Source of the DNA: Candidatus Gerdarchaeota archaeon
Lineage (GTDB): Archaea > Asgardarchaeota > Heimdallarchaeia > JABLTI01
Length of the DNA: 30,217 bases
Direction of reading: 5' to 3'
Assembly: GCA_016840945.1 (NCBI GenBank)
Contig: JAEORJ010000040.1
Coordinates: 1-30,217, forward strand
The notes beneath the pieces were generated by a model. That model saw only the letters and a program-made list of their open reading frames with translations, was not told the origin of the DNA and did no database searches. This document shows positions 5,219 to 26,435 of the stretch, piece by piece. Position numbers and translations under genes: made by a program. The first letter of the stretch is position 1. Each line of letters opens with the position of its first letter.

Positions 5219-5286
5219 TTTTTTACAAAAATTCAAACTTATATTACTTTAATGGGCATCAAATCAAATAAAGGAGATTTAAAACA

Positions 5287-8668: not shown

Positions 8669-8683
8669 CTTGTAACCTCCTTT

Positions 8684-9190
8684 TTATTCTTCCAACTCTG
8701 ATAGATTATCTTCATTTGAATAAACAATTTCTAAATCCAAGTATTCTTCTTTGCTCTGTTTTTTATACCATTTGAGTATATTAAGCCCAAAAACAAGTAT
8801 CATAGCAATTACAATGAATGAATTTACTGGAATAAGTACATAATTGAACAGTTGATTTCGCTCATAAATTTGCAATTCATTATTTACATCTTCAATTATT
8901 GCCATTGCTTCATCATAAGCATCTTCATAATTTTCTGAATAATAATCATCTAATGCACCATTTAAACGATTAACGAAAACTTGTACATCCATTCCTTCTT
9001 CACTTGCTTGTTGAATATCTTCAAAAGCATTAGTGATAGCAGTAAATGCTTCCTGCTCTGTTGTAGCTTTTACCATTAAAATATGAGTTTGTGAGTTGAA
9101 TTGTATACTTAGGAAAATGATGAGTAATACTATTGATAATAGAAGTGTTTTTTTGACTGTACTTTTACCTTTCAAATTATTCCTAATCAT
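8684..9190 (-). CDS. Small exported membrane-anchored protein of unknown function
   Basis: I do not recognise this 168-residue protein. It has an N-terminal signal or anchor helix (about 13-32), an acidic, mostly helical outer segment of about 75 residues (TTEQEAFTAI through VNNELQIYERN), a second membrane helix at about 117-138, and a short acidic cytoplasmic tail. Its start overlaps the stop of the upstream gene by four bases (ATGA), so translation is probably coupled. The topology suggests a small helical hairpin or spacer protein outside the membrane, held by two helices. Context puts it with the DUF1616-like and GT-C proteins in surface assembly, but nothing in the sequence names a reaction. 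Confidence 0.7.
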   Translation of the reverse strand: MIRNNLKGKSTVKKTLLLSIVLLIIFLSIQFNSQTHILMVKATTEQEAFTAITNAFEDIQQASEEGMDVQVFVNRLNGALDDYYSENYEDAYDEAMAIIEDVNNELQIYERNQLFNYVLIPVNSFIVIAMILVFGLNILKWYKKQSKEEYLDLEIVYSNEDNLSELEE

Positions 9191-10178: not shown

Positions 10179-11780
10179 ATGAATATGAAGTCTGAGTTAT
10201 CAGAGAAATCTGAGATTTTAGAGAGGAAAGATTCTACTAATAAGAAAATTACTAAATTAATTGAGAAAAAAGAAGAAGCCCTTCAAGCTGGTGGCGAAGT
10301 AGCTATTACTAAACAGATTGAGAAAGGGAAATTAACTGCTCGTCAAAGGATTGATCTTTTACTTGATCCTGGAACCTTCGTCGAAACAAATATGTTCGTA
10401 AGGCATAATTGTAATAATTTTGATTTGGACGAAAAGAAATATTTCACAGATGGTGTTATAACAGGTTTTGGACAAGTTAATGGGCGACTAGTTTACGTTT
10501 ATAGCCAGGATTTTACAATTTTAGGTGGTAGTTTGGGAGAAGCTCATGCTAAAAAGGTCACTCAAATAATGGATCAAGCTGTTCAAAATGGTGCTCCAGT
10601 AATAGGATTTAATGATTCTGGTGGGGCACGAATTCAAGAAGGTGCAAATTCATTAGCAGGTTATGGTGACATCTTTATTCGAAACGTTCGCGCTTCAGGT
10701 ATAATACCTCAGATTTCATGTATAGTCGGCCCTTCCGCTGGTGGGGCTGTCTATTCCCCGGCTCTAACAGATTTTATTGTCATGACCGAAGACACATCCT
10801 ATATGTTTGTAACCGGTCCGGCAGTAGTGAAGGCAGTCACAGGAGAAGAAGCAACTTTTGAGGAGTTGGGTGGAGCATCTACCCATAGCTCTAATTCGGG
10901 AATCGCCCACTTGGTTGGTTCAGACGAACTTGAATCAATTGAGTTGATAAAGTCTCTTCTCTCCTTTTTGCCTTCAAATAATCTTGAAGATCCACCAATG
11001 AAAGAGGTTTCAACTGTCACAGGATTTAATATAGAGGAGTTAAATGAAATAATCCCAGATGATCCCCAAGAACCTTATGATATGCGAGAAATCATTCTAA
11101 GAATCATCGATAAAGGTAATTTTCTTGAAATTCAAAAGAAATGGGCTCAGAATATCATAATTGGATTTGGTCGGTTAAATGGCTACCCAGTAGGTATTGT
11201 TGCCAATCAACCAAGCATTTTGGCTGGAGCATTAGATATTAATGCTTCTACAAAAGCTGCTAGATTCATACGATTCTGTGATGCATTCAATATTCCAATA
11301 ATTACCTTTGTAGATGTTCCTGGATTTTTACCTGGTTTAACACAAGAACATAATGGTATAATTAAGCATGGTGCTAAGTTAATTTACGCTTATGCAGAAG
11401 CTTCAGTACCTAAATTGACTGTTATTACTAGAAAAGCTTATGGGGGAGCTTACATAGTTATGGGTTCAAAACACTTAGCAAATGATATTAATTTTGCTTG
11501 GCCAACAGCTGAGATAGCTGTCATGGGATCAGAAGGAGCAGTACAAATTCTATACAGACGAGAATTGGATAAAGCAGAAGATAAAGAAGAATTATTGGAA
11601 GAACTCAAATTACAATATGCTGAAGAATTCAATAATCCATATTTGGCTGCTGAGAAAGGTTACATTGATGATGTTATTTTACCCAGTGAAACTCGCCAAA
11701 AACTCATTGCTTCTTTATGGCCTCTTTTAAGAAAGAGAGAAAGGCGTTTAAATAAAAAACATGGAAATGTTCCACTTTAG
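10179..11780 (+). CDS. Acyl-CoA carboxylase carboxyltransferase subunit (biotin-dependent; acetyl-CoA type predicted)
   Basis: This 533-residue protein is the PccB/MmdA/AccB-type carboxyltransferase, which moves CO2 from carboxybiotin to an acyl-CoA. The N-terminal crotonase half has GFNDSGGARIQEG (143-155) and GPSAGGAVYSPAL (184-196), whose glycines form an oxyanion hole. The C-terminal half has DVPGFLPGLTQEHNGII (379-395) and RKAYGGAYIVMGSKHL (418-433). The position that is Asp422 in Streptomyces PccB and Ile in acetyl-CoA-preferring AccB is Ile426 here, which predicts malonyl-CoA as product. Start ATG 10179 has the SD AGGAG at 10166-10170. The giant synthase starts 25 bases downstream, so it likely receives the malonyl-CoA. 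Alternative: methylmalonyl-CoA decarboxylase alpha or propionyl-CoA carboxylase. No biotin carboxylase or biotin carrier is nearby. Confidence 0.92.
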   Translation: MNMKSELSEKSEILERKDSTNKKITKLIEKKEEALQAGGEVAITKQIEKGKLTARQRIDLLLDPGTFVETNMFVRHNCNNFDLDEKKYFTDGVITGFGQVNGRLVYVYSQDFTILGGSLGEAHAKKVTQIMDQAVQNGAPVIGFNDSGGARIQEGANSLAGYGDIFIRNVRASGIIPQISCIVGPSAGGAVYSPALTDFIVMTEDTSYMFVTGPAVVKAVTGEEATFEELGGASTHSSNSGIAHLVGSDELESIELIKSLLSFLPSNNLEDPPMKEVSTVTGFNIEELNEIIPDDPQEPYDMREIILRIIDKGNFLEIQKKWAQNIIIGFGRLNGYPVGIVANQPSILAGALDINASTKAARFIRFCDAFNIPIITFVDVPGFLPGLTQEHNGIIKHGAKLIYAYAEASVPKLTVITRKAYGGAYIVMGSKHLANDINFAWPTAEIAVMGSEGAVQILYRRELDKAEDKEELLEELKLQYAEEFNNPYLAAEKGYIDDVILPSETRQKLIASLWPLLRKRERRLNKKHGNVPL

Positions 11781-11805: not shown

Positions 11806-14800
11806 ATGAAAAGAGAATACACTTTTGACAATATCCTAAAAACGAAAAAACCAATTTTCGCTTATAATCCTCCAGGGTTATTAAAAGTCGATTTAATTCA
11901 AGCAGTAATAGCAGCTGGTGGTGTTGGTTTAATTGATTTAGAGAGATTAAGTTTACCTGAATCTGAGCAGCTAATAAGAAAATGCTACCAAGATTTACTA
12001 GGATTATGGGGAGTTAGAATTGCTTCGGAAGATCAATTAAAGCTACTAATGGAATTACATAATTATAATTTTCCAGTTTTAGTAATTCTTTCGGATGTTC
12101 AATTAAGCAAAAAGACAATTAATCAATTGAAAGAAAGACCTTTCATTGTATTAGCTGAAGTGACAACCTTAGAGGAAGCTTACAATCAAAAATGGGTGGA
12201 TGTTTATCTAGTAAAAGGAAATGAAGCAGCAGGGAGAGTTGGTGATGAAACATCTTTTATTTTAAGCCAACAATTTGCTGATGCTGGATTACCTTTTATT
12301 GTCCAAGGAGGTATTGGATTATATACTGCTCCTGCAGTATTTGGTGTTGGAGCTAAAGGTGTAGTTCTTGATTCACAATTATATCTAACAAAAGAGTCAC
12401 CATTACCTCAGAAATGGAAAGAATGGTTGTCAAAATTAGATGCTACAGATTCAAAAATCCTAGGTACTTCAACTAAGTGGAATTATCGCGTTTATGCAAA
12501 ATTAGGTACTAAAATTGTTAAAAGAATTATCGAGGAAGAAAAGGAGCTTTTACCTCTTTCAATAGAAGAGAGAAGCTCAACATTTAAAGATAAAATTTTA
12601 TCACACAGAGAAATGTTTGATAGCAAAGATTTAACTGAATCATTATTACCATTAGGACAAGATATTGCCTTTGCGAAAACTCTAACTGAAAAATTTCCCA
12701 CTGTAAAAGAAATAATTGACGGAATTATTAATCAGATAAAACAACAAATCATTTTTGCAAAAACTCACTATCCTTTTAGTGAAAAATCTGAGTTCGCTAA
12801 TGAATTAGGTATTAAATATCCTATTGCTCAAGGCCCAATGGCTAATGTTTCAGAAAATCCATTATTTGCAAAAGAAATAGCTAAAAATGGTGCCTTACCA
12901 TTTCTAGCATTAGGATCATTATTTGAAAATCAAACCCTAAAATTGATTAGAGAAACCCAAAAAGAATTAACAAGTAAACCTTTTGGTTGTGGAATCATAG
13001 GTTTAGAGGCAAATAAAAAAGCACGTGATGTGCATCTAAAACTATTACAAGAGTTAAAACCACCTTTTGTAGTTGTTGCTGCTGGAACAATTGAACAAGC
13101 TAAAGAAGTGATGAATTATAATATTAAGACATTTTTACACACTCCTTCAGCAGCAATTTTCAAAGAAGCAATTGAAACCAAGGTTGATTATTTAGTTTTA
13201 GAAGGGATGGAATGTGGAGGCCATATCGGTGTTTTAACAAGTTTCGTTCTCTGGGAACTTTCATTATATGAAATAGCTAAATTACGTGCAGTTCTACAAA
13301 AAGAAAAACGAAAAGTAAAGATTGCTTTTGCTGGTGGGATTGGTGATCGTTATTCAGCAGCAATGGTAGGAGTGATAGCTTCTGCTATACCTGATTTAAC
13401 TATGAGTTTAATGTGGGTAGGATCTGCTTATATAACAGTCAAAGAAATCGTTGAAACTCAAGCAATTAAACCTCTTTATCAACAATTAGCTCTAGATGCT
13501 AAAGAAACACGTGTTTTAGGCGAGACCGTTAACACAAGAGCACGATCGATTCCGACACCATTTACTGAAATAATAGTGCAACATGAATTGGATCGATTAA
13601 AAGAAGGTATGGGGTTATCTGAACGAAAACATCTTTTCGAGCGAGATAACTTAGGCGCAACACGAATAGCTGCATTAGGTCAAATATGGAATCCTAATGG
13701 GGAGGATGATAAACCAAATCGATTCATGTCTATTGATGAGAAAGGCCAATTTGAAAAAGGGAATTATCTTATAGGCCAAATTGTAGCTAGTTTGAGAAGT
13801 GTAAGAACTATTGAAAATCTTCATCAAGAATTAGTAGCATTATCACAAGGTGTTATTGAAAAGAAAAGTCATGAAATTATTAGCAATTTAGATGAAATAA
13901 ATGATTTAATGACAAATGAACAGAGAAATGAACAACCAACTTTAGAGATTACTAATCCACTTCGTGTAAATCAACATTTTGAAATTGAAGGAGAAGGAGT
14001 TGCAATAGTTGGCTTAGGTGGAGTGTTTCCTGATGCTCTAAATATATCAGATTTTTGGAGAAATATCATCAACAAAGTATATTCAATAAAAGAAATATCT
14101 CAAGAGCGTTGGGGAAGTGATATCAAAATTTTCTATAGCGAAGATAAAAATATCCCTGATAAAACTTATTGTAAGATTGCTGCTACAATTGATAATTTTA
14201 AATTTAATTCTCTCGAGTTTAAAATACCACCACAAATGGCAATCTCAATTGATAGAGTACAAAAAATCGCTTTAGTTGCTGCTAAGGAAGCTCTAGCTGA
14301 TGCTGGGTTATTAGGTGATGAAGTTGATAATACTCGTACCGCTGTTATCGTAGGTAATAGCATGGGTGGTGAAAGTAGGATTGAACATACTCGAAAAGTC
14401 TATATCCCAGAATTTATCGCTACAGTTGAAAGCAGCCAAGAATTTGCTAAAATTGATCGCAATATCTGGTCAAGAATAAAAGAGCAAATAATCACTGATT
14501 ATGATAAACGGTTGTTGCCAATTAATGAGGATTCTATGCCAGGAGAATTATCCAATGTTATCTCTGGTAGGATAGCTAATATTTTCAATCTTAGAGGTAA
14601 AAATATGACAACTGATGCTGCTTGTGCATCAAGCTTAGCAGCATTAAATGTAGCAGTTAAAGGATTACTTGATAACGAATGTGATGTAGCTTTATGTGGT
14701 GGAGCTGATTGTTCACTAGATCCTACTACTTTTGTTAAATTTTCAAAAATAGGTGCATTATCAGCAGATGGTTCTTTCCCCTTTGATAAACGAGCAGGTG

Positions 14801-17800
14801 GTTTTGTTATGGGTGAAGGAGCAGGTTTCATTGTTTTAAAACGATTATCCGATGCAATAAAGACCGGCGAAAAAATATACGCTGTTATTCGAGGTTTAGG
14901 AGCATCTTCTGATGGGAAAGGAAAAGGAATAACAGCACCAAATCCATTAGGACAAAAATTAGCAGTTGAACGAGCATTAGAACAGGCAAAATTAACACTT
15001 AAAGATATACAATTAATTGAAGCTCATGGGACAAGCACAAAAGTTGGTGATGTTGTTGAATTAGAGGTATTAAATTCATTGGGAAAAGATATACCAAAAC
15101 ATTCAATCGCAATAGGTTCTATAAAAAGCCAAATTGGTCACTTGAAAAGTGCTGCTGGAATAGCATCAATAATAAAAGCTGCTTTAGCATTACATCATAA
15201 AATACTTCCACCATCAATTAATTTTGACACTCCTAATCCTAATATAGAGTGGCAGAATTCACCCTATTACGTTAATACTGAACTTAAAGATTGGCAAAAA
15301 TCAACCAAACAACCACGTTTTGTTGGTGTTTCATCCTTTGGTTTCGGAGGTACAAATTACCATACAATATTAGAGGAGTATGTTCCAAATCAAACTAAGG
15401 GGCATTTACCTCGAGTAATGACACCAGAAGAAATCAGTGAAATAATGAATAACTTAGGATCATTATCTATTGTACCAACCACTAAAGAAATGATATTTGA
15501 TTCAGAAGCATGGAAAAACTACATTGCAACCAACCTTTCTCTTGAAACAGAACCAATTTTCTTTGGAGCTGATACAAAAGAAAAATTGCAAACACAAATG
15601 TTGGAGTTTGTTAAAGCTATTCCAAGTAATAATTTTGAAGTGCAAGGAACAGGTAAGCGCATAAGAGAATTATGTTATGAATCACTTTCAGAAATTAAAA
15701 AAGATAACAAAATTGGTATTGTGTGCAAATCCTTCGCTGAATTAGATCAATTAATAAAAGGAGCATTGGATGGATTAGAGAACAAATCAAAAAGATTGCT
15801 TCTTAGGAATAAGGGTATTTTTTATAGTGATGATTTTAAAGTCAATAAGATAGCTTTTCTTTTTCCAGGACAAGGAAGTCAATATGTTAGAATGGGGAAG
15901 GAATTATATGATAAGTATCAGATTGTTAGGGATACTTTCCATGAAGCTGATATTATTACCATGGAACTGATGAACTTCAAAATAACTGAAGCAATTTTTG
16001 CTTTAGGTAAAAGTGATGAAGAAGCAAATGAAGCTCTCAGACAAACCGAGATTACTCAACCAGCTATTTTTGTTGTTAATATTGCTATATTTCGATTGCT
16101 TCAATCATATGGCATCAAACCAGATTTCGTTGCTGGTCATAGTTTAGGAGAATATTCTGCTCTTGTTGCATCAGGTATTTTAAGTTTTAGAGATGGTTTA
16201 CGAGCAGTTATCCCACGTGGACAAGCAATGGCTAAATTTGACACTAAAGACAAAGGTATCATGGCTTCAGTAGCAGCAGGTTTTGATGAAGTAGATAAGA
16301 TATTAGCTCAGGTAGATGGTTATGTAATTGCTGCTAATAAAAACTCCCACAGCCAAACAGTTATTTCAGGTGCAACAATAGCTGTGAAAAAAGCAATGGA
16401 ATTGTTCACCGCGAAGGGAATAAACGTTGTACCAATTCCTGTTTCAGCTGCATTTCATTCTCAGATCGTTGCTCCAGCAGTATCCGATTTACGTGTATCC
16501 TTGGAAAAATTAACATATAATAAAATGGAAATTCCCATTTCTAGTAATGTTACAGGTGATATATATCCTGAAACTAGAGAAGAAATCATTGCATTATTGT
16601 GTGAGCAAATTGCTTCTCCAGTAGAATGGGTAAAACAAATAGAAAACATGTATGAAAATTATGGCGTTAGAACATTCATAGAAGTAGGGCCAAAATATGT
16701 GCTAACGAGTTTTGCTAAAGGCATTCTAGAAAATAAAGATGATATCCTCACTTTAGCATCTAACCATCCAAAAAGAGGTGAATTACAACACTTCTCAGAG
16801 GTTCTAACAGCATTGAGTGTTTTTAGTTATGCAGTTCAATATCCTAAATTAGATGATAATATCTTTGCTGACACGTTCTTATCACCAACTAAGCAATTCT
16901 ATAAAGAAAGAATAGTTGCTATTGAAATACCTACACCAATTAGCGAACAAATAAGAATTGATTCAAATTCACCATTTAGTTCACTTATTGATGGCGAGTT
17001 AGGGAGCATAATTACTGATCCTAATTTTAATGATTATCTTGAGCTACAAAAACCAGCTATTAGTGCATTTCTAAAGGCTGGTTTTGAAACCTATCGAGAT
17101 AAAATTGCTACTGCGATGAAAACTCATGATAGATTCGAAAAATTAGGATTAACAACAGAATCAATAGGTGTAAGTGGTATATCATTAGGGTTACCTGGAA
17201 AGAAACGGTCTGTTTTTGATCCAAACAATTTTGATGATATCTTAGCTGGTGAGAACTTTATCGAAGAGATACCAGAAACCATTCGAGATAAAATGGTTGA
17301 CAAGAATATTGTTAGATTGGTTAAAGATGCAATTAAAGGAGCTCAATTCCAAACAATAACTGATGCTGCAGAAGTGATTAAATTAGCAGCACAAAAAGGA
17401 AAATTCAATCTAGCAGAAGAATATGGTGTAGATGCAGATTTTGTTGAAATATTGGATATCACATTTCAATTAGCATTTGCAGCTGGTATTGAAGCATTGC
17501 GAGATGCGGGTATACCCTTAATGCCTTTAAAGGTGCAAACCTCTGTAGGAAAAGAAATAACAAAAGGATGGGCTTTGCCAGAACCTTTGAGAGATGAAAC
17601 TGGAATTGTTTTTGCCTCAGCTTTTCCAGCATATAGTAATTTAATTTCTACAATTTCTCAATACTTGACTGATAAATTTGAGAATAAACATCAACAAGAA
17701 ATAATGAGTATTTTCAATGATTTGATTTCACAAATTAAAGATCCTTCAGCAAAGCAAAAAATCGAACAATGGTTAGAGCACAATAAAGCAGATCTGGAAT

Positions 17801-20800
17801 CAAACAAAGACTCACAATTTGAATTCAGTCGTAAGTTCCTATTCGAGGTTCTATCAATGGGTCATTCACAATTTGCTCAATTCATTCGAGCAAGAGGACC
17901 CAATACGCAAGTTAATGCTGCTTGTTCATCCACAACACAAGCAATTTCAATTGCAGAAGATTGGATTCGAACAGGTAGATGTAAACGAGTAATAGTAGTA
18001 GCTGCTGATGATGTTACTAATGAGCAAATGCTTGAATGGATTGGCTCAGGATTTCTTGCTGTAGGTGCAGCAACAACAAAAGCTGATGTGAAAGAAGCTG
18101 CTTTACCATTTGATAAAAGACGACATGGCATGATTATCGGAATGGGTGCAGTAGGGATTGTACTTGAATCTGAACAAGCAATCAAAGAACGTGGTGTCAA
18201 ACCAATAGTCGATCTGCTTGGCACTCATATAGTAAATTCTGCTTTTCATGGTACAAGATTAGATAGAGATCATATATCATCACAAATGAACGAGTTCATA
18301 ACCACTATTGAGAAACGATTTGGCTTAAATAGAAATGAAATTGCTAAGCAATTAGTTTTTGTTAGTCATGAAACTTATACTCCTGCAAGAGGTGGTAGTG
18401 CTTCAGCAGAAATAGATGCTTTACGTAAAACATTTGGAACCGGTATTGATAATATAATTATTGCCAATACCAAAGGATTTACAGGCCATGCGATGGGAGC
18501 GGGAATTGAGGACGCTGTAGCAATTAAGATTTTAGAAAAAGGAATTGTTCCACCAGTTGCCAATTGGAAAGAAGAGGACCCTGAATTAGGGCATCTAAAC
18601 CTCTCTAAAGGTGGACCAGCAAATGTGAAATATGCTTTACGTTTTGCTGCTGGATTTGGTTCGCAATTAACTTTAGCACTTTTCAGATTGAATACCAAAG
18701 ATAATAGGTTTACTTCACAAGCTTATGAGGATTGGTTACATTCACTTGGCGGTTCAAGAGGTACTTTAGAAGTTGTCAATAAAACACTACGTTTGAATGA
18801 GGACACCTCAATAATTAGTAAAGCTAAAACAAGTAGTTCAATCAGTCAACCTAGTGCTATTACTGCTGATACTCAGATAGTAAAAGTCATTGTTGATTTA
18901 ATCTCAGAAAAAACAGGTTATCCTGTTGATATGATTGAACCTAATATGCGCTTGGAAGAAGATTTAGGTATTGATACTGTGAAGCAAGCTGAGCTTTTTG
19001 GTTTACTTCGTAATAAATACAATCTCCCTCGAGAAGAAGGAGTTAGGATTCAAGATTATTATTCAGTAAACAAAATAGCTGAATATCTTTCATCCAAGAT
19101 GGGTAATGCTGGGGTTAAAAGTGTTGAACAACAAGTAAGTGCTTCGTTAACTACTGATTCTGATAAAGCTTTAATTATCAAACAGATTACTTCTTTGATC
19201 TCCGAAAAGACAGGTTATCCCGAAGAAATGGTTGAACCTGATATGGAATTAGAGGAAGACTTGGGTATTGATACCGTAAAGCAAGCTGAAATGTTTGGCA
19301 TCATTCGTTCAAAATGGGACTTACCTCGAGAGGAAGGAATTAGGATTCAAGATTATTCAACAGTAAATAAAATAGCAGATTATATCCAAAATAGAATTAG
19401 TACTTCAAAACCTACTTCTCAAGCAAAGACTGATTTGGGAGCTATTGATGAATCAATAAAAATCGTTCCAGCTCAAAGATCAATAGTAAAGATTATTGAT
19501 GCTCCACAGTTCCCGTCAGAAAAATTATCATTAGCAAATAAACATTTTATCATTGCTGGTGAGATATCTGATTTTACTAATGAGCTTATTCAGCTTCTAG
19601 AGAAAAAGAAAGTCATAATTAATTCAATAATTGATGTTAGAAAATTAAAAACAATTGATGCTCTAACAAAAGCAATCCCTCATGAAGCTATTGATGGATT
19701 ATTATTCATCGCACCTAAAACATCAAAGAATACTATACATGATTATTCACCTAAAGCATTCTTTGCACTCTGCAAAAATTGTAATTTCAACCAAAATCCT
19801 ACTATCTTTACTATAATTCCAGATCAACTATTATTTGGTTGGAATGATAAGAAAAGTAAACCCATTGTTGGTTCATTAACCGGTTTAACAAAAACAGTTG
19901 CCAGAGAATTTTCAGGTAGTAATATCAAAACAATCTCCTGTATAAAACCTGACCAAACAATGGGTGAATTACTTTTCAATGATGGCTTTATTGAAATAGC
20001 TTATGATGAAAAAGATCTGAGAAAAGCATTTATTGTACAACCAATGCCAATTGATAATACACCTTCTGAGAAATTTACACCTACAAAAGATGACTTAATC
20101 TTAATCACTGGCGGTGCACAAGGAATCACTCTCGAGATAACAAAAGAAATTGCGAATAATTATCATTCCAATCTTGCGCTAGTCGGAAGAACAATTTTGC
20201 CCAAAAACATTGATGAATTAATGTCTTATGATGATACACAATTAGCTTCACTTAAAGAAGAGCTAATCGAGAAGCTAAAATCTACAGATGAAAAAGTTAC
20301 CCCTGTTAAAATTGAAAAGGAATGGTCTAAGACTACCAAAGCTATAACAATTAAAAGAAATCTCTTGGAATTAGAGCAATTAGGTTCAAAAGTGAATTAC
20401 TATTCAGGTGATGTAGTTAACTCAGATAGAATGCAAGAAATCTTATCAAAGATTAGAAGCGATTTCAAGAGCGATATTACGGGATTTGTTCATGGCGCTG
20501 GATTAGAAATCTCCAAATTAATTGCTGATAAAAGTCAGGATGATTTCAATCTCATTTACGATGTAAAAGCAATTGGTTTTGATAATATTATCGAAAATGT
20601 TGATTTATCAAAACTTAATTTTGTAATTTGTTTTGGTTCAGTTGCAGGAAGATTTGGTAATGCTGGACAAACCGACTATTCTGCAGCTAATGATTATCTC
20701 GCAAAATACTGTTGGTATTTACGTTCTAAAGGTATTCGGGCAACAACAATTTGTTGGACTGCTTGGGCAGATATCGGTATGGCAACTCGAGGTTCGGTGT

Positions 20801-22560
20801 TAAAAATACTTCAATATGCAGGTGTTACTCCAATATCTACTTCTGATGGAGTCAAAGCCTTCATTTCCGAATTAGAATTTGGGCAGGAACCAGAAGTAGT
20901 TATAGCTGGTAATTTAGGATTGTTATTAAATTCACCTAATGGCTTTGCAGTTGTTGATAAAAGAAAACATCCATTATTAGATAAAGTAAAACGAAACTAT
21001 GATGGTTCAATTATAATGGAACGTGAATTCTCTCTAGATACTGATCTCTATCTTGACCATCATCGCTTTGAAAATATTCCTTACCTTCCAGGAGTCATCG
21101 GTTTGGAATTGTTCTATGAATTAGCCAACATCGTTTATCCAAAGAATAACATTTTTAGCTTTAATGATGTGGAGTTTAGCTCTGCTGTTAAATTCAAAAA
21201 TGAAGAATCACGAAAATTACGTCTTGTAATGGATTATAGTTCAAATCCAGCTGTGATATTAGAATCAGATATTATTAAGGATAACAAAGTCATCGGTTTG
21301 CCAACTAAACACTTCAAAGCAACTATAGAATTTGGAAAACCTCTCTCTAAATTAGAATCAATACCGAAGATAAATTCTAAGTCAGCAATTAAAGATAAAG
21401 CAATTTATTCTATCCTACCACATGGTTCAAGATTTCAAGTGTTAAATGAAATTGACTCAAATGAAGATGAAATATACGGCAAGATAGCTCAAATAGCTGA
21501 AAATCAGTTATCATATAATAGTAAATCATTCTATGCCAATCCCCTAGCAATAGAATCAGCTTTTCAAGCAGCAGGATTATTAGATATTCTAAAGGATGAG
21601 AAATTAGGTTTACCTTTAGGTATAGAGTCATTAAAATATTATAAGACAAGTAATTTGCCACTATTTGTAATAAGCACCAAAAAAGGAGAAGGAGAATTTG
21701 GTAGCATTTACGATTTTGAAATCATCACTGATAAAGGTGAATTAGTATTAGAAGCTAAGAATTACAAAACAGCTCAAGTAAATTTTGGCATTAATCTTGA
21801 TCCTGTTAAAGAAATCAAAAAAGAGCAATTAAAACAATTATTCCATTTACCGAAAACTACTATTATTGAAATTACATCCACTCACGAACTTGAAGGTCAA
21901 CTTTCCACAGCTCAAATAAAATTAGATGAATTGCTTTGTTCTGAGGAATTATCTAAATGGCAATCTTTCAAAGTTGAAAAAAGAAAAATTGAATGGTTAG
22001 CAGGAGTTCTAACTGCTAAAAAAGCAGTTCAACAATTATATCCAAAGATTGACTATAAAGACATACTAATAGAAAAAACTGAGTTTGGAAAACCAATTGC
22101 AATGATACCAAATAGAAAAACACCTCTAAAAGTATCAATAACTCACAGCAATGGATTTGCAGTTGCAATAGCTGATTCAAAAATAAACACTGGAATTGAT
22201 TTAGAGAAAATAGAATCAAGATCAAAATCAATTGTTGATGAGATGCTCAGTAATGAAGAAAAAGAAACAATAGAGCAGCATTCACCCGGAGAAATAACTG
22301 ATGAGTTGATAACAAAAATTTGGACTGCTAAAGAAGCTGCAACAAAAGTGTTGGGCACAGGATTGAACATTGATTTACGTGATTTGATACTTAAGAAGAT
22401 TAAGAAAGAAGAAATGACATTTGAAATAGATGTAGATAAACTTCCTAAAAGCAGTTTTGAAGTTACGAAAAAGGCCATTAATGGTGATTCACAGTTGATT
22501 TTAATTGCAAAGCTAGCAAAAAATGGTGATTTTGTTGCTGCAGTATGCCAATTATCCTGA
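11806..22560 (+). CDS. Giant single-chain type I fatty acid/polyketide synthase: NPD-NPD-KS-AT-KS-ACP-ACP-KR-DH-PPTase
   Basis: This 3584-residue multienzyme should build and reduce an acyl chain from malonyl units. Domains in order: degenerate nitropropane-dioxygenase/PfaD-like barrel (about 1-260; Arg144 where FabK/PfaD have His); a second such barrel (about 330-590; ECGGH with His473), the likely flavin enoyl reductase; KS1 (about 732-1195; Cys940, His1074, His1112); AT (about 1348-1650; GHSLGEYSA Ser1446, Arg1471, AAFH His1551, malonyl type); KS2 of a different subfamily with a long N-terminal insertion (about 1787-2300; Cys2040, His2188, His2228); two ACPs with Thr2391 and Thr2490; KR (about 2758-3040; GGAQGIT, Ser2945, Tyr2958, Asn2962); double-hotdog DH (about 3055-3340; His3086, ESAFQ at 3250-3254); Sfp-type PPTase (about 3365-3584; GIDLE, WTAKEAATK). 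No thioesterase or methyltransferase is visible. SD AGGTGAT precedes ATG 11806. Its composition matches its neighbours. Chain length and product are unknown. Confidence 0.93.
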   Translation: MKREYTFDNILKTKKPIFAYNPPGLLKVDLIQAVIAAGGVGLIDLERLSLPESEQLIRKCYQDLLGLWGVRIASEDQLKLLMELHNYNFPVLVILSDVQLSKKTINQLKERPFIVLAEVTTLEEAYNQKWVDVYLVKGNEAAGRVGDETSFILSQQFADAGLPFIVQGGIGLYTAPAVFGVGAKGVVLDSQLYLTKESPLPQKWKEWLSKLDATDSKILGTSTKWNYRVYAKLGTKIVKRIIEEEKELLPLSIEERSSTFKDKILSHREMFDSKDLTESLLPLGQDIAFAKTLTEKFPTVKEIIDGIINQIKQQIIFAKTHYPFSEKSEFANELGIKYPIAQGPMANVSENPLFAKEIAKNGALPFLALGSLFENQTLKLIRETQKELTSKPFGCGIIGLEANKKARDVHLKLLQELKPPFVVVAAGTIEQAKEVMNYNIKTFLHTPSAAIFKEAIETKVDYLVLEGMECGGHIGVLTSFVLWELSLYEIAKLRAVLQKEKRKVKIAFAGGIGDRYSAAMVGVIASAIPDLTMSLMWVGSAYITVKEIVETQAIKPLYQQLALDAKETRVLGETVNTRARSIPTPFTEIIVQHELDRLKEGMGLSERKHLFERDNLGATRIAALGQIWNPNGEDDKPNRFMSIDEKGQFEKGNYLIGQIVASLRSVRTIENLHQELVALSQGVIEKKSHEIISNLDEINDLMTNEQRNEQPTLEITNPLRVNQHFEIEGEGVAIVGLGGVFPDALNISDFWRNIINKVYSIKEISQERWGSDIKIFYSEDKNIPDKTYCKIAATIDNFKFNSLEFKIPPQMAISIDRVQKIALVAAKEALADAGLLGDEVDNTRTAVIVGNSMGGESRIEHTRKVYIPEFIATVESSQEFAKIDRNIWSRIKEQIITDYDKRLLPINEDSMPGELSNVISGRIANIFNLRGKNMTTDAACASSLAALNVAVKGLLDNECDVALCGGADCSLDPTTFVKFSKIGALSADGSFPFDKRAGGFVMGEGAGFIVLKRLSDAIKTGEKIYAVIRGLGASSDGKGKGITAPNPLGQKLAVERALEQAKLTLKDIQLIEAHGTSTKVGDVVELEVLNSLGKDIPKHSIAIGSIKSQIGHLKSAAGIASIIKAALALHHKILPPSINFDTPNPNIEWQNSPYYVNTELKDWQKSTKQPRFVGVSSFGFGGTNYHTILEEYVPNQTKGHLPRVMTPEEISEIMNNLGSLSIVPTTKEMIFDSEAWKNYIATNLSLETEPIFFGADTKEKLQTQMLEFVKAIPSNNFEVQGTGKRIRELCYESLSEIKKDNKIGIVCKSFAELDQLIKGALDGLENKSKRLLLRNKGIFYSDDFKVNKIAFLFPGQGSQYVRMGKELYDKYQIVRDTFHEADIITMELMNFKITEAIFALGKSDEEANEALRQTEITQPAIFVVNIAIFRLLQSYGIKPDFVAGHSLGEYSALVASGILSFRDGLRAVIPRGQAMAKFDTKDKGIMASVAAGFDEVDKILAQVDGYVIAANKNSHSQTVISGATIAVKKAMELFTAKGINVVPIPVSAAFHSQIVAPAVSDLRVSLEKLTYNKMEIPISSNVTGDIYPETREEIIALLCEQIASPVEWVKQIENMYENYGVRTFIEVGPKYVLTSFAKGILENKDDILTLASNHPKRGELQHFSEVLTALSVFSYAVQYPKLDDNIFADTFLSPTKQFYKERIVAIEIPTPISEQIRIDSNSPFSSLIDGELGSIITDPNFNDYLELQKPAISAFLKAGFETYRDKIATAMKTHDRFEKLGLTTESIGVSGISLGLPGKKRSVFDPNNFDDILAGENFIEEIPETIRDKMVDKNIVRLVKDAIKGAQFQTITDAAEVIKLAAQKGKFNLAEEYGVDADFVEILDITFQLAFAAGIEALRDAGIPLMPLKVQTSVGKEITKGWALPEPLRDETGIVFASAFPAYSNLISTISQYLTDKFENKHQQEIMSIFNDLISQIKDPSAKQKIEQWLEHNKADLESNKDSQFEFSRKFLFEVLSMGHSQFAQFIRARGPNTQVNAACSSTTQAISIAEDWIRTGRCKRVIVVAADDVTNEQMLEWIGSGFLAVGAATTKADVKEAALPFDKRRHGMIIGMGAVGIVLESEQAIKERGVKPIVDLLGTHIVNSAFHGTRLDRDHISSQMNEFITTIEKRFGLNRNEIAKQLVFVSHETYTPARGGSASAEIDALRKTFGTGIDNIIIANTKGFTGHAMGAGIEDAVAIKILEKGIVPPVANWKEEDPELGHLNLSKGGPANVKYALRFAAGFGSQLTLALFRLNTKDNRFTSQAYEDWLHSLGGSRGTLEVVNKTLRLNEDTSIISKAKTSSSISQPSAITADTQIVKVIVDLISEKTGYPVDMIEPNMRLEEDLGIDTVKQAELFGLLRNKYNLPREEGVRIQDYYSVNKIAEYLSSKMGNAGVKSVEQQVSASLTTDSDKALIIKQITSLISEKTGYPEEMVEPDMELEEDLGIDTVKQAEMFGIIRSKWDLPREEGIRIQDYSTVNKIADYIQNRISTSKPTSQAKTDLGAIDESIKIVPAQRSIVKIIDAPQFPSEKLSLANKHFIIAGEISDFTNELIQLLEKKKVIINSIIDVRKLKTIDALTKAIPHEAIDGLLFIAPKTSKNTIHDYSPKAFFALCKNCNFNQNPTIFTIIPDQLLFGWNDKKSKPIVGSLTGLTKTVAREFSGSNIKTISCIKPDQTMGELLFNDGFIEIAYDEKDLRKAFIVQPMPIDNTPSEKFTPTKDDLILITGGAQGITLEITKEIANNYHSNLALVGRTILPKNIDELMSYDDTQLASLKEELIEKLKSTDEKVTPVKIEKEWSKTTKAITIKRNLLELEQLGSKVNYYSGDVVNSDRMQEILSKIRSDFKSDITGFVHGAGLEISKLIADKSQDDFNLIYDVKAIGFDNIIENVDLSKLNFVICFGSVAGRFGNAGQTDYSAANDYLAKYCWYLRSKGIRATTICWTAWADIGMATRGSVLKILQYAGVTPISTSDGVKAFISELEFGQEPEVVIAGNLGLLLNSPNGFAVVDKRKHPLLDKVKRNYDGSIIMEREFSLDTDLYLDHHRFENIPYLPGVIGLELFYELANIVYPKNNIFSFNDVEFSSAVKFKNEESRKLRLVMDYSSNPAVILESDIIKDNKVIGLPTKHFKATIEFGKPLSKLESIPKINSKSAIKDKAIYSILPHGSRFQVLNEIDSNEDEIYGKIAQIAENQLSYNSKSFYANPLAIESAFQAAGLLDILKDEKLGLPLGIESLKYYKTSNLPLFVISTKKGEGEFGSIYDFEIITDKGELVLEAKNYKTAQVNFGINLDPVKEIKKEQLKQLFHLPKTTIIEITSTHELEGQLSTAQIKLDELLCSEELSKWQSFKVEKRKIEWLAGVLTAKKAVQQLYPKIDYKDILIEKTEFGKPIAMIPNRKTPLKVSITHSNGFAVAIADSKINTGIDLEKIESRSKSIVDEMLSNEEKETIEQHSPGEITDELITKIWTAKEAATKVLGTGLNIDLRDLILKKIKKEEMTFEIDVDKLPKSSFEVTKKAINGDSQLILIAKLAKNGDFVAAVCQLS
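18862..19401 (+). repeat. Tandem duplicated acyl-carrier-protein modules inside the giant synthase
   Basis: Two ACP copies of about 80 residues, offset by 99 residues (about 2353-2433 and 2452-2532), share the core EEDLGIDTVKQAE, the preceding SEKTGYP, and the following REEG-RIQDY and VNKIA-Y motifs. The DNA of the two copies has diverged at synonymous sites, so the duplication is not recent. In both, the residue at the phosphopantetheine attachment position is Thr (codons ACT at 18976-18978 and ACC at 19273-19275) rather than the usual Ser. Tandem ACPs are a hallmark of PfaA-type PUFA synthases and generally raise flux. Confidence 0.9.
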
Positions 22561-22699: not shown

Positions 22700-24553
22700 A
22701 TGGCATTTGCTACTAGATCTAAATTCTTCTGGTCAAGATTCATTGCCACCTGTGTAAAGTATCTAGGCGTAGCAAATACCCAACAAATTCGTTATTTAGC
22801 TGAAAGAATTCTCCCAACTGAAATGAGCCGGCAAAATATTCTTTATCATGTTAGAATTGCAGAAGAAAAAGGTTGGATAGCTACCTTTGCTTCAGCTTTA
22901 GAAATGACTGATGAAAATGAAATTCTTTTTCGTAAAAATTTCCTCAAAAAAATTAATGAAAAAGTTTCTGCTCAAAGGTTTGTTATTATAGGCACAGAAA
23001 CTTTTGATCCTGAATGTGAAGATAAAATAATTCAAATTTGCAAGGAAGTGAATCTGAATTCAATTTCTATACTCGATCCTCAAATTTTACAATTTATAAC
23101 AGATGATTGTATCAAACGCTTATCTTCTACAAAAGAGAAAGCAATAGGTAATCAATCTTTATTTATGGTTCTTCTAAGATTCGGTTGGTTCTGGCTCAAT
23201 ATTAATCCTGAAGTCTCTTTACGAATAATTAATGTCCTGAAAAGCAATAATTCCAAGCATAAATACAATCATTACTATAAAATTGATGTTGATTTATTAG
23301 AAATTGTTTGTATGATTGAGTTAGAAACTTTACCTGAACTTGATACTGATGATCTAAAGAGTTTCTTAACTAAGTGTGTAAAATTATCCTCAGCTAAAGA
23401 TCGAACTGATATTATGAATCTCATGAGTATGACTCTGTTGATTTCAGGGCGATTCTTGGTTACACATAACAAATTGACATTAGCTGAAGAATACCTTAAT
23501 CGTGGTATAAAATATCTTAGGATTTCACGTAGAAAATCAATATTAATGAGAAAATTACATGTAGATGGTTTGTTTGATTTAGGATATATCTATTCTCAAC
23601 AAGGTTGGTTTTACAAAGCATTAAGCATGTATGAAAATATTGAACTGATATTAAAGGAAGAATTTCATGAGACTGATCCTACTTTAAATTTACAAGGCCG
23701 ATTAGCTCTAGCTAGAACTGAATTGTATCTAATGATGGCTTATCCAGCTTATACATTTCAAGATGAAGATTACCGATCATCTCTTGATAAAGCTCTTAAT
23801 TATGCCGATAAAGCAATTCATTATTATCAAGAGACAAAGAATACTTTACTTGTAACAGAAGTAACATTACTAAGTGCATGGATCAATGCCTTGTTAGGTC
23901 GTCTAAAAAGAGCTGAACACCTATTCAAGAAAGGCACAAAAGAATTAGCTGCTCCTGTTCCAGCCAAATTGAATGCCTTTTATTATAATGCTCAAGCTGA
24001 AATTCATCGAAAAATGAACAATTATAGCGCTGCTATTAAGAGCATCTCTTTAGCATTTGATTATTTGAAAATACTGGGGCAAGATATCGGTAAACTCTTT
24101 TGTATGACTCGTTTAGCTGAATTACATGTCAGTTTATCATTAACGGAAAATCAAATATCATATATTTCTTTTGGTAATATGTCTCATCTCTTCAAAAAAG
24201 AAATATCCGATATGGTAAGCCATGTCTTTTTGGAATATGTTAAATCATTAGTGAATTCCTCAGCAATAGTTTCTTTCTATTTAAGTAGTGAAGTGTTACA
24301 AAATCACCCTGAAGTAGACAATTACGCTGATTACTTAAAAATAACCAATATCTCAACAGAATTGTTAGGCGAATCTTTTACTATACTACCATCTAGTTTC
24401 GTTAATAATGAATCATTAAATCGCGCAAAAGCAGTTTGCATTACTGCTCCTGAAAACAAAAGTGATATAGTTAATGATTTTATTTTTGATAATTTTAAAG
24501 ATGAATTAATGGAATTTGATGATACATTTCAAAAATTAATGGCTCAAAAATAG
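22700..24553 (+). CDS. HTH-like N-terminus with TPR-repeat helical body; putative regulator
   Basis: This 617-residue protein is soluble and almost all helical. Residues 10-65 (FIATCVKYLGVANTQQIRYL ... NILYHVRIAEEKGWI) look like a winged-helix DNA-binding segment. Residues from about 255 to 470 contain TPR-like helix pairs, such as AEEYLNRGIKYLRIS, LGYIYSQQGWFYKALSMYENI, ALNYADKAIHYYQETKN and YNAQAEIHRKMNNYSAAIKSISLAFDYL. No ATPase or catalytic motif is seen. The layout resembles the sensor ends of large TPR regulators but without a nucleotide-binding domain. Start ATG 22700 follows an AAGGG-type SD. It lies 139 bases downstream of the giant synthase on the same strand, with a large palindrome between, so it may regulate that operon or itself. 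The function is inferred from architecture only. Confidence 0.6.
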   Translation: MAFATRSKFFWSRFIATCVKYLGVANTQQIRYLAERILPTEMSRQNILYHVRIAEEKGWIATFASALEMTDENEILFRKNFLKKINEKVSAQRFVIIGTETFDPECEDKIIQICKEVNLNSISILDPQILQFITDDCIKRLSSTKEKAIGNQSLFMVLLRFGWFWLNINPEVSLRIINVLKSNNSKHKYNHYYKIDVDLLEIVCMIELETLPELDTDDLKSFLTKCVKLSSAKDRTDIMNLMSMTLLISGRFLVTHNKLTLAEEYLNRGIKYLRISRRKSILMRKLHVDGLFDLGYIYSQQGWFYKALSMYENIELILKEEFHETDPTLNLQGRLALARTELYLMMAYPAYTFQDEDYRSSLDKALNYADKAIHYYQETKNTLLVTEVTLLSAWINALLGRLKRAEHLFKKGTKELAAPVPAKLNAFYYNAQAEIHRKMNNYSAAIKSISLAFDYLKILGQDIGKLFCMTRLAELHVSLSLTENQISYISFGNMSHLFKKEISDMVSHVFLEYVKSLVNSSAIVSFYLSSEVLQNHPEVDNYADYLKITNISTELLGESFTILPSSFVNNESLNRAKAVCITAPENKSDIVNDFIFDNFKDELMEFDDTFQKLMAQK

Positions 24554-24654: not shown

Positions 24655-24891
24655 ATGTTTGCTCACATTCTTAGAACATTACCTCCTAGTGCAAACTTTG
24701 TTTTTTACGTTTTAGACAGATCTGGTCCATTGCCAAGACACGAATTATTAGCTGAAACTAATCTACCAGATAGAACACTAGGTTTTGCACTTGAAGTATT
24801 ATTGAAGAAAGGTCTTGTTGTAAGAATATTAGATAAAAAAGATGCTAGATTAAGAATTTATCACATACCTTCTCCAATAATGCTAACCTAG
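24655..24891 (+). CDS. Small MarR-like winged-helix DNA-binding protein
   Basis: This 78-residue protein is little more than one winged helix-turn-helix. The helix HELLAETNLPDRTLGFALEVLLKKGLV is the HTH, and VVRILDKKDARLRIYHI is a beta-hairpin wing with the basic and acidic residues usual in MarR/ArsR relatives. Stand-alone short winged helices are common archaeal regulators. AGGA lies four to five bases before ATG 24655. An upstream ATG at 24645, in another frame, opens a nine-codon reading frame with its own TAGGAG SD and could couple to this start. The stop codon overlaps that of the convergent gene (see findings). Target unknown. Confidence 0.72.
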   Translation: MFAHILRTLPPSANFVFYVLDRSGPLPRHELLAETNLPDRTLGFALEVLLKKGLVVRILDKKDARLRIYHIPSPIMLT

Positions 24892-26063
24892 ATTTTATTG
24901 GATTTGACTAATGTGAAATTAGTATTGGTCACTATCTTAGAAATCTCTTCTTTAGATAGTGGCTCAATCTCTTTCTTTTTTAGATTTGTTAAACCTGGAC
25001 AATTTTGCAAACAAAAGCCACTTACAAATCCATTTATAAAAGGATGTTCAATTTGCTCTTTATCCAAGCTGATTAATGGATAATAGACAGGAATCTCTTC
25101 GCTATAAAATGATACCTCAATATCCCGATCAAGAATTGTTGTAGTATCATTTCCTAAAGTAATTCCTCGTTTACCTCTATTTTCAATTATTTTCTCAGAT
25201 ATACCAATACAAATCCTATCACATATTGAGCAGTTTATTCTATCATAACCAATTTGATCCATAATTGTTTTGAAATTGATGCTAAAATATTTACTAACTT
25301 TTTTTGGTTGAAATCTATTAATTTTACTCAATTGCATATTTATTTGCTCGATGTTTGAATTGTTATTTTCTAAATCTTCAAGTTGAAATACTATAGGTAT
25401 AGTTATTGCCCCTCTTTTACATAATAGAAAGGCTGCTATAGCATCTTCCAAACTTCCTCTTAATATTGAAACAATCATTCCTTGGGTACCTTGAGGTAAG
25501 CCACCGTATGCTTTGATTTTATTGTCAAATATAAATGCAAATTCATCCTTTACTTCAATCTGTAATCTATAATCGGGATGGGTCAAATTAACAGATAAAT
25601 TCATTTTTTCACTTAAGTTTTCATAAATTTCCTCGCCAATCAATCGTTCTAATTCTATTGAAGTATAATCATGTTTTCCTACTCGTTTGGCTCTGACAAC
25701 AAAAGAGAAATTGGGTTCAATATTTCTTTCTGCTAACATTAATGCTATTCGCTTAATATCTTCTATTCTAGAGCTTGTTCTAATTACAGGGCTTACTGAA
25801 GTTATACCAAAAATATTCTTAGAAATAAGTGAAGAAATTTCCATCGCTTGATCAGAGATTATTTCATCAGGAGTGTCGTCATCAATATTGATTATAATCC
25901 TACCCCAATGCCTATTGATACTTACTTTAAAATTTGAATAATCCATTTTTTTTAGGAAAATTTGAATATTAGAAGCAAGACGTGATTCCATATATCTTCG
26001 AACAGTTGGACTCTTTAGGCTTAGCTCACCAAATCTCACGAAAATTTCAGTCAATTGCTTCAC
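24888..26063 (-). CDS. ThiI-like THUMP-domain protein lacking a functional PP-loop
   Basis: The 391-residue protein follows the ThiI layout: an N-terminal ferredoxin-like and THUMP RNA-binding region (FVRFGELSLKS at 8-18; FVVRAKRVGKH near 121-131), then GGLPQGTQGM at 187-196, which in ThiI leads directly into the ATP-binding PP-loop SGGIDSPVA. Here that loop reads RGSLEDAIA (202-210), so the Ser, second Gly and Ser of SGGxDS are lost. CSIC (278-281) keeps the archaeal C-x2-C, and FCLQNCPG ends the domain. ThiI makes 4-thiouridine at tRNA position 8. This copy probably binds tRNA but cannot adenylate it in the usual way. The start is GTG 26063, placing the conserved FGE at the usual distance; its SD is weak. 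It lies 105 bases after the TFS-like gene, same strand. Confidence 0.75.
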   Translation of the reverse strand: MKQLTEIFVRFGELSLKSPTVRRYMESRLASNIQIFLKKMDYSNFKVSINRHWGRIIINIDDDTPDEIISDQAMEISSLISKNIFGITSVSPVIRTSSRIEDIKRIALMLAERNIEPNFSFVVRAKRVGKHDYTSIELERLIGEEIYENLSEKMNLSVNLTHPDYRLQIEVKDEFAFIFDNKIKAYGGLPQGTQGMIVSILRGSLEDAIAAFLLCKRGAITIPIVFQLEDLENNNSNIEQINMQLSKINRFQPKKVSKYFSINFKTIMDQIGYDRINCSICDRICIGISEKIIENRGKRGITLGNDTTTILDRDIEVSFYSEEIPVYYPLISLDKEQIEHPFINGFVSGFCLQNCPGLTNLKKKEIEPLSKEEISKIVTNTNFTLVKSNKI

Positions 26064-26168
26064 TTCTTGTTAAAAAAATAAACCAAGGTACATAAAGTTA
26101 CTGAAATATTGGTTTAAAATAAGCATTATAAAAATAAAATGGAAAATGAGACAAGAACAGGGAAATGA

Positions 26169-26435
26169 TTAATCATATTCCATTTGTTCTAACATATCAC
26201 CATATGAATCTTCTAGTTCTTCTCTCTCTTCATCAGTTAATGCACGTTGTTTTTTAACTTCAGTTACTTCTAACTTTTCTTTTTCGCTGTGTTCAATTTT
26301 ACGTGTTAAAGTGTAATCTTGAGATTTAGTTTTAGTTAATTTAACCTTTTTGCCACAGCTCGAACAAACTAAATAACTGCCTTTATCTTCTCTAACGGGT
26401 TTCATAAGACTTCCGCATTTATCGCAAAATTCCAT
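26169..26435 (-). CDS. TFS/RpoM-like N-terminal zinc-ribbon protein without the C-terminal ribbon
   Basis: This 88-residue protein begins with a zinc ribbon of the archaeal TFS / RNA polymerase subunit M (Rpb9, TFIIS-like) type: Cys4-x2-Cys7 and Cys24-x2-Cys27 around a [12 protein letters not shown] turn. A charged linker and an acidic tail ([20 protein letters not shown]) follow. Full TFS is about 105-115 residues and ends in a second ribbon carrying the DE cleavage-stimulating pair. That ribbon is absent here and there is no frameshift to explain it. So it may dock on RNA polymerase without stimulating cleavage, or be a paralogue with another role. GAGGTGAAG upstream of ATG 26435 is a good SD. 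Confidence 0.75.

Follow-up and report, generated by a model that had tools for sequence, protein, structure and literature searches.

Polyunsaturated fatty acid (PUFA) synthases, PfaA-E, follow the layout KS-AT-ACPn-KR-DH, in which a ketoacyl synthase (KS), an acyltransferase (AT), tandem acyl carrier proteins (ACPs), a ketoreductase (KR), and a dehydratase (DH) are joined, while an enoyl reductase (ER) of the nitropropane dioxygenase (NPD) type resides in PfaD and a 4'-phosphopantetheinyl transferase (PPTase) in PfaE. PfaC carries a KS paired with a chain-length factor (KS-CLF), this second KS of PUFA synthases being a chain-length factor that lacks the cysteine. The type I fatty acid synthases (FAS I) of fungi and of the Corynebacterium-Mycobacterium-Nocardia-Rhodococcus (CMNR) group work de novo, their very large chains containing a flavin ER; the fungal enzyme has a fused PPTase. 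In animal FAS and in SwfA, the ACP site is a serine. Here we describe a type I synthase of 3584 aa, encoded in one frame (11806..22560, + strand; open reading frame (ORF) list, translation, and Pfam) of a 30,217-nucleotide stretch from Candidatus Gerdarchaeota archaeon (contig JAEORJ010000040.1), the whole of which is referred to as the window. The catalytic domains and active-site residues of a whole reducing cycle were present on this chain (Pfam and alignment), which supports the original prediction, made from the letters alone, that one chain in an archaeal setting forms a complete reducing synthase; the host is an Asgard archaeon. On its gene content, the protein is probably a type I FAS of Heimdall-group Asgard archaea that activates itself, acts iteratively, and reduces fully, and its product would enter acyl-glycerol lipids; that it makes reduced acyl chains is predicted with greater confidence.

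The ORF begins with ATG and its translation contained no internal stops. Pfam matches comprised ketoacyl-synt (two stretches, E 2.8e-75), Acyl_transf_1 (5.3e-45), Ketoacyl-synt_C (1.9e-42), KR (8.1e-33), NMO (1.1e-22), ACPS (4.6e-12), PP-binding (2.8e-8), PS-DH, and PKS_DH_N. From the N-terminus, and all on the + strand, the chain holds an NPD-like barrel (residues 7-268; 11824..12609), an NPD/FabK-type ER (about residues 330-640; 12793..13725; PF03060, and FabK 7l00 with E 3.3e-17), KS1 (13987..15405; C940/H1074/H1112; Pfam and alignment), AT (15838..16755; S1446 in GHSLGE and H1551 in AFHS; PF00698 and alignment), a FabF-like KS2 (17143..18675; C2040/H2188/H2228; best match a KS II of known structure, E 8.4e-24), ACP1 (18868..19095; attachment residue Thr2391; Pfam, alignment, and motif), ACP2 (19153..19395; attachment residue Thr2490; alignment and motif), KR (20089..20790; S2945/Y2958; PF08659 and alignment), DH of the polyketide synthase (PKS) double hot-dog type (20923..21795; H3086; PF21089, PF14765, and alignment), and PPTase (21913..22545; D3465/E3510; PF01648 and alignment). 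The AFH sequence in the acyltransferase is described as a malonyl-type motif (PMC3908369). The segment at 19423..20085 (+), judged from its position, is probably a structural, non-catalytic ketoreductase half, and it was matched at 24-47% identity in 16 of 21 related loci, taken from 21 of the 39 Asgard genomes in which the synthase was detected (see below).

Residue conservation was evaluated in an alignment of 112 relatives, the eight proteins shorter than 2900 aa among the best 120 of 3549 hits having been left out. The active-site residues named above for KS1, AT, KS2, KR, and DH were invariant (112/112), K2223 of KS2 was kept in 111/112, and D3465 and E3510 of the PPTase were kept in 109/112 and 108/112, respectively. 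Both the predicted uninterrupted frame, with ER, two KS, AT, two ACPs, KR, DH, and PPTase, and the catalytic residues predicted for KS1, KS2, AT, KR, DH, and PPTase were therefore confirmed. The predicted NPD-type ER is also present, although the N-terminus has to be redrawn, by homology, as two NPD-like barrels in tandem: residues 7-268 aligned with the ER barrel at 25% identity over 298 aa (self blastp, E 3.5e-7), and this first barrel was found in 19 of the 21 Asgard loci compared. At the barrel positions, G168 was glycine in 90/112 and H473 was histidine in 86/112, the remainder being gaps. An AlphaFold model of residues 1-640 had a mean predicted local distance difference test score (pLDDT) of 44.1, too low for use.

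Both ACPs carry the motif LGIDTVKQAE, in which the threonine aligns with the serine of structurally known ACPs (2ehs; PigH, 5y08), the residue that is established to carry phosphopantetheine. The prediction of two ACPs holds with the correction that threonine occupies the phosphopantetheine position of each; the serine expected of a de novo type I FAS was found in neither. Among the 112 aligned proteins, the ACP1 site was threonine in 108, serine in 3, and a gap in 1, and the ACP2 site was threonine in 109, serine in 2, and a gap in 1. One regular expression applied to the 120 proteins returned 338 ACP-like motifs (1 to 8 per protein), 326 with threonine and 12 with serine. Within the tree of 112 proteins described below, the threonine/serine counts were 85/0 in the bacterial clade, 50/2 in the Thermoplasmatota/Euryarchaeota clade, and 172/10 in the Asgard clade, and all ACP motifs of the 21 Asgard loci had threonine, save two of the three in G009. 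No report on threonine carrier sites was found in the open-access literature with narrow search terms. We infer that the fused PPTase may be adapted to the threonine site; threonine carrier sites across a whole synthase family would represent new enzymology.

Immediately upstream of the synthase, on the same strand and with a gap of 25 nt, lies a gene for an acyl-CoA carboxylase (ACC) carboxyltransferase (CT; 533 aa; 10179..11780, +; PF01039, E 2.5e-196), which scored 780.5 bits against TIGR01117, below the cut-off of 998.8. CT was likewise directly upstream on the same strand in 21/21 relatives' loci. The other neighbors were identified by blastp against reference neighbors in the fetched stretches, representatives being checked by Pfam. 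Biotin carboxylase and biotin carboxyl carrier protein (BCCP) were found in 19/21 loci, the misses (L034, L049) lying at contig ends; an alpha/beta hydrolase was found in 17/21 (not in L034, L041, L042, and L049), and biotin ligase in 11/21. KS1, AT, KS2, KR, DH, and PPTase occurred in the same order across the 21 loci, and the tandem ER in 19, L041 and L042 being without ER. Directly downstream of the synthase in both of these ER-less loci (2/21) was a FabI-type enoyl reductase (L041 2125-2961; L042 16373-17185; PF13561, 233-234 bits). These two loci thus retain the reducing step through a separate enzyme, which favors fully reduced products. In the upstream 10 kb of the window, positions 97-6186 and 8063-9888 hold a glycosyltransferase/Wzx-like cluster with DUF1616 genes. 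At the corresponding place, close loci carry biotin carboxylase, BCCP, and the hydrolase, a local rearrangement.

The distribution of the synthase was surveyed in 227 Asgard genomes with its KS2-ACP piece (residues 1700-2500; E 1e-20), which matched 39 of them, including genome-sized contigs in G009 (3,326,783 bases) and G087 (4,361,485 bases). The window's clade, a grouping of our own, comprises nine genomes: G001, G056-G060, and G062 (71% KS2-ACP match), together with G061 and G063, which carry Fak-PlsY genes; seven of the nine had a synthase match (not G061 and G063). In an unrooted FastTree tree of 112 proteins, drawn from the best 120 of 3549 hits, the Asgard sequences formed a clade of 67 (support 1.0), beside a Thermoplasmatota/Euryarchaeota clade of 12 (0.987) and a bacterial clade of 33 (0.944), of which seven members bear a bacterial name. 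Among the same best 120 hits, relatives outside Asgard with Thermoplasmatota names lacked the NMO domain, and full-length relatives occurred under Desulfomonilaceae/Thermodesulfobacteriota names. Three synthases in the Asgard clade (P0002, P0009, and P0061) were labelled Bathyarchaeia, Zixibacteria, and Methanobacteriota, and probably come from mislabelled bins.

An acquisition from bacteria long ago had been proposed for this gene. The presence in several Asgard groups (39/227) speaks against a lone acquisition, and the tree separates archaeal from bacterial members; being unrooted and drawn from the best 120 of 3549 hits, it gives neither the direction nor the date of a transfer. The original prediction had also named an identical architecture, already characterized in close archaeal relatives, as an outcome that would tell against it. 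The architecture does recur in such relatives, and no characterization of it was found in the literature searched.

PlsY was searched for with TIGR00023 in the 227 genomes and in 14 control genomes. Matches over the cut-off were obtained in 36/227 genomes and sub-cut-off matches in 53 more; 8 of the 14 controls matched, all bacteria. The synthase and an over-cut-off PlsY occurred together in 31 genomes, the synthase only in 8 (G001, G013, G014, G023, G058, G059, G087, and G088), PlsY only in 5 (G021, G033, G034, G061, and G063), and neither in 183 (Fisher p 1e-25, with kinship ignored; as few as about four lineages may underlie the association). Within the window's clade, PlsY follows genes for FakA (DAK2 plus FakA-like_M) and FakB (DegV) in four of the seven genomes that carry the synthase (G056, G057, G060, and G062), and the same cluster was found in G061 and G063, close genomes without a synthase match. 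Among the adjacent genes, Pfam cut-offs were exceeded by FakA in G057 and G060, DegV in G057 and G056, and PlsY in G057 and G060; the TIGR00023 cut-off was passed in G057 and G060, and homologues of the cluster were found by blastp in G056, G060, G061, G062, and G063. The G057 proteins were below the NCBIfam equivalog cut-offs for FakA and FakB1 (score/cut-off in bits: NF038248, 250.4/975; TIGR03599, 343.2/396.1; NF038249, 132.6/350), the archaeal FakA (about 310 aa) spanning model positions 1-316 of 549, and G057 passed the generic DegV model TIGR00762 (266.9 vs. 99.7 bits). The DegV frame of G060 was in two pieces, and FakA of G063 was cut by a contig end. In another Heimdall block, PlsY had a DegV/FakB-like gene two or three genes away in four of nine loci (G011, checked by Pfam; G012, G018, and G026), and two Kari-like PlsY loci (G039, G041) showed no DegV. 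G009 had a second PlsY upstream of the CT-synthase pair (124.5 bits; cut-off 137.2). PlsY-like matches were unusually expanded in the window's clade, with 10 in G056, 13 in G060, and 10 in G061.

PlsY and PlsC in Asgard archaea are already known (PMC6737245, PMC6431249, PMC9385802). Coleman (2019) reported plsY and plsC in Asgard bins and thought a role in archaeal membranes unlikely, their occurrence being patchy and restricted to bins (PMC6431249). Fatty-acid genes in Lokiarchaeota were proposed in a source cited by PMC6737245, and a putative fatty-acid pathway together with PlsC has been described for marine group II (MGII) archaea (PMC6962369). By listing of the open-access literature, no paper on archaeal FakA as a subject was found. 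In Enterococcus, FakB and FakA make acyl-phosphate for PlsY from fatty acids freed by a thioesterase (PMC12288450), and bacterial PlsY takes glycerol-1-phosphate (G1P) as well as glycerol-3-phosphate (G3P) (PMC13400652).

Taken together, these genes suggest a route from malonyl-CoA to acyl-glycerol lipids. The upstream CT, of the malonyl-CoA-making kind, would supply malonyl-CoA; the AT would load malonyl units onto the ACPs; KS1 and/or KS2 would condense them; and the KR, DH, and flavin-type ER would reduce the product of each round. The alpha/beta hydrolase seen beside the synthase in relatives may then free the fatty acid. As judged from relatives in the window's clade, FakB would bind this fatty acid, FakA would phosphorylate it, and PlsY would pass the acyl-phosphate to glycerol-phosphate, yielding acyl-glycerol lipids.

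Several observations weigh against this route. Threonine in both ACPs could mean poor or unusual loading, and in the window CT alone adjoins the synthase, biotin carboxylase, BCCP, and hydrolase lying elsewhere if present. The co-occurrence counts are uncorrected for kinship. Three of the seven clade synthase genomes (G001, G058, and G059) had a sub-cut-off PlsY only, and no Fak genes were seen at one weak PlsY locus in each, other parts of these genomes being unsearched. In the other Heimdall block, no DegV was present in the fetched stretch at five of nine PlsY loci (G008, G009, G015, G016, and G024), and no FakA was seen at any of the nine. PlsX was considered as the acyl-phosphate source and rejected, since it was found in 0/45 genomes while 8/14 controls matched; its absence was also noted by Coleman (PMC6431249), and, given the FakB-FakA-PlsY route of Enterococcus, need not break the pathway. 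PlsC was detected in 9/39 synthase genomes and nowhere in the window's clade, leaving the second acyl step unexplained; Heimdallarchaeum has likewise been reported without a second acyltransferase (PMC8813620). GpsA was found in 2/45 genomes (G087 and G088) and not in the window's clade (G061 and G063 outside the search), where matches of the glycerol-1-phosphate dehydrogenase (G1PDH) type are weak, so that the glycerol-phosphate source is unexplained as well. An affinity to PUFA synthases would fit a specialized lipid.

The ether-lipid side of these genomes bears on where the acyl chains would go. Geranylgeranylglyceryl phosphate synthase (GGGPS), which catalyzes the opening step toward ether lipids, was found (PF01884, E 1e-20 or better) in 151/227 genomes, but in only one of the 39 synthase genomes (G013, on a 7,628-base contig) and in 0/36 genomes with an over-cut-off PlsY; weak PF01884 matches (E 1e-3 to 1e-5) occurred in G011, G016, G033, and G040. 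TIGR01768 was over its cut-off in 1/39 synthase genomes vs. 4/6 comparison genomes. Weak matches of the TIGR01768 search in G036 and G039-G042 led to a divergent GGGPS-like family, with PcrB over the Pfam cut-off in G039 and G042 and the motifs YLEAGSG and GGGI also in G036 and G041. Wider profiles were then run in two rounds, on 45 and then 47 genomes, the last holding canonical and divergent forms. They recovered G050, G064, and G093 at 1e-44 to 1e-46 and found divergent GGGPS in G007, G034, G035, G038, G039, and G041; the synthase genomes with a divergent form are G007, G035, G036, G039, G041, and, weakly, G040. No significant match was obtained in the window's clade (0/9), in G087-G092 (0/6), in G031-G033, G037, and G044, or in 22 of the 23 genomes given from the G007-G030 block. 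An 18-bit partial match in G056 in the first wider round was gone in the second. The divergent family (YLEAGSG, YGGGI; far below equivalog cut-offs) is possibly an unannotated ether-lipid prenyltransferase; its genes lie at L063 966-1775, L067 582-1382, L068 268-1152, L074 312-1298, L075 281-1120, and L076 264-1160.

Other genes for archaeal lipids were retained. CDP-archaeol synthase (CarS, PF01864) was present in 38/39 synthase genomes, G028 being the miss, and strong Fe-ADH_2 matches, read as G1PDH, were found in the G007-G041 block except G035. Fe-ADH_2 also matched bacteria (13/14 controls), and in the window's clade its matches were weak (E 5e-6 to 5e-10). The retention of CarS and the strong Fe-ADH_2 matches in one block argue against a full lipid switch and, with the divergent GGGPS, weaken a simple loss of the archaeal lipid pathway. 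The two genomes with GpsA also have PlsC (G087 genes checked by Pfam); on the 4.36 Mb contig of G087, these lie at L078 1427-2491 and L079 1137-2195, with the synthase present and GGGPS undetected. Should such archaea build fatty-acyl membranes, the backbone may differ by lineage, G1P being used where a strong G1PDH-type match is kept (G008-G030) and G3P in G087/G088, where GpsA, PlsC, and synthase are jointly present with GGGPS undetected (a single 4.36 Mb contig in the case of G087).

Earlier work has proposed mixed membranes (PMC11052028, PMC9723677), and Heimdall/Hodarchaeia were predicted to have archaeol bilayers because most lack tes (PMC12042123). That some Heimdall-group Asgard archaea crossed the lipid divide, with synthase and Fak/PlsY present, GGGPS lost, and membranes largely fatty-acyl, is a tentative proposal to which we give somewhat less than an even chance. 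Fatty-acyl membranes would fit the gene pattern, with a second acyltransferase and a glycerol-phosphate source missing in the window's clade.

The alternative that survives best is that the synthase makes fatty acids for a minor use, such as protein acylation, storage, or cofactors, while an unrecognized GGGPS replacement keeps the membrane isoprenoid. It shares its product with the favored assignment and differs in destination, so the probabilities of the two do not sum to one. CarS in nearly all synthase genomes and the strong Fe-ADH_2/G1PDH-type matches of one block would agree with an isoprenoid membrane, as would the isoprenoid lipids of a cultured Lokiarchaeote (as cited in PMC13400652 and PMC9385802); moreover, divergent GGGPS came to light in G007 and some of the Kari-like genomes only once the profiles were widened, so that still more divergent forms may exist. 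The combined profile, built on canonical as well as divergent sequences, however, yielded nothing significant in the window's clade (0/9) or in 22 of the 23 genomes given from the G007-G030 block, and we regard the alternative as rather unlikely.

A specialized-metabolite or PUFA-like synthase, making a secondary lipid or polyketide and not bulk fatty acids, appears less probable again. The top NCBIfam match of the protein was PfaA (TIGR02813), the two KS and tandem ACPs resemble Pfa, tailoring genes are possible among the neighboring ORFs, which are annotated in part only, and a 2020 mat study reported Heimdall KS domains from a "potentially novel PKS cluster" with PUFA synthases nearest (PMC7472256). 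The PfaA score of 938.8 bits, however, was below the cut-off of 1010.1, and the ACC genes conserved beside the synthase, the single full reducing cycle, the replacement of ER by FabI in the two ER-less loci, and the breadth across Asgard all point away from such a product. KS2 as a Pfa chain-length factor was rejected, because its Cys-His-His is kept in 112/112. The description as a condensed Pfa-like machine accordingly survives as to the top match and fails as to the sub-cut-off score and the intact KS2.

The gene order CT, synthase, TPR-like, ThiI, TFS was identical in the window and in 6/6 close loci (L001, L033-L037), one of which, L001, comes from a metagenome-assembled genome (MAG) titled Candidatus Heimdallarchaeota archaeon. 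Identity to the window in these loci was 58-61% for the synthase, 80-86% for CT, and 64-69% for a 617-aa TPR-like protein (22700..24553, +), which the window's clade retains downstream of the synthase and whose TPR match was weak and below the Pfam cut-off; its AlphaFold model was too low in confidence for use (mean pLDDT 42.8). The ThiI-like and RPB9/TFS zinc-ribbon genes (24888..26435, -) lie outside the pathway and serve as synteny anchors for archaeal identity. Synteny with Heimdallarchaeota MAG contigs confirms, from gene order, a Heimdall-group Asgard contig; the archaeal setting claimed earlier is borne out. The supposed match in base composition was not close: GC was 0.31-0.37 in windows over the synthase vs. 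0.28-0.33 in flanking windows. Contamination or a recent bacterial transfer into a single MAG, to which the origin of most relatives in bins and the Thermodesulfobacteriota names of the nearest full-length relatives named outside archaea (35-36% identity, among the best 120 of 3549) might lend weight, is refuted for practical purposes by the shared gene order, the genome-sized single contigs, and the fully supported Asgard clade, whose only bacterium-named member, with 42 of the 67 bearing no name, is a third party annotation (TPA) record of Zixibacteria. Further downstream in the window, tandem metallo-beta-lactamase-fold hydrolases are encoded at 26952-27815 and 27914-28747, a homologue of the second being present in L001 and, cut, in L037. 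Searched against PHROGs, three flanking proteins yielded a single weak match, without known function.

The synthase, its carboxylase neighbors, the Fak-PlsY cluster, and the absence of GGGPS by lineage appear undescribed in the open-access literature searched, preprints being outside the search and sources being covered in part; none of the terms lipid, fatty acid, GGGP, and polyketide occurs in the main text of Eme (2023). The synthase with its malonyl-CoA supply, in lineages with Fak-PlsY in which GGGPS was undetected, would represent the acyl source. With such a source, the membrane question becomes one of direct lipid measurement, and studies of Asgard lipids have been called for in a review on how membranes evolved (PMC12136173). 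As Asgard archaea are the group nearest to complex cells, the finding bears on the origin of the membranes of those cells.

Compared with known systems, the window synthase resembles PfaA-E in its KS-AT-ACP-KR-DH arrangement, NPD-type ER, PPTase, and tandem ACPs, whereas it differs in being all on one chain, in its threonine ACPs, in a score below the PfaA cut-off, and in an intact KS2 that follows AT and precedes the ACPs, a position taken in PfaC by KS-CLF. The Desulfomonilaceae/Thermodesulfobacteriota synthases, for which we know of no function, are alike over 98% of the query at 35-36% identity and have threonine in 85/85 ACP motifs, but form the separate bacterial clade (33 members, 0.944). 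The very large chain with a flavin-type ER recalls fungal/CMNR FAS I, as does the fused PPTase in the case of fungi; domain order and ER family differ, the NPD-type ER of the window synthase being N-terminal and a FAS-type ER not being among its 13 Pfam families. SwfA of sponge symbionts has the order KS-AT-DH-ER-KR-ACP (PMC3908369); like it and animal FAS, the window synthase is mono-modular, thought to be iterative, and capable of full reduction, while SwfA and animal FAS have one KS, DH before KR, and ER within the chain. On the side of acylation, the archaeal genes differ from the Enterococcus TesE/FakB-FakA-PlsY route (PMC12288450) in being clustered without PlsX and, in the window's clade, without PlsC, and they share with it the FakA, FakB, and PlsY families and the logic by which these would act together.

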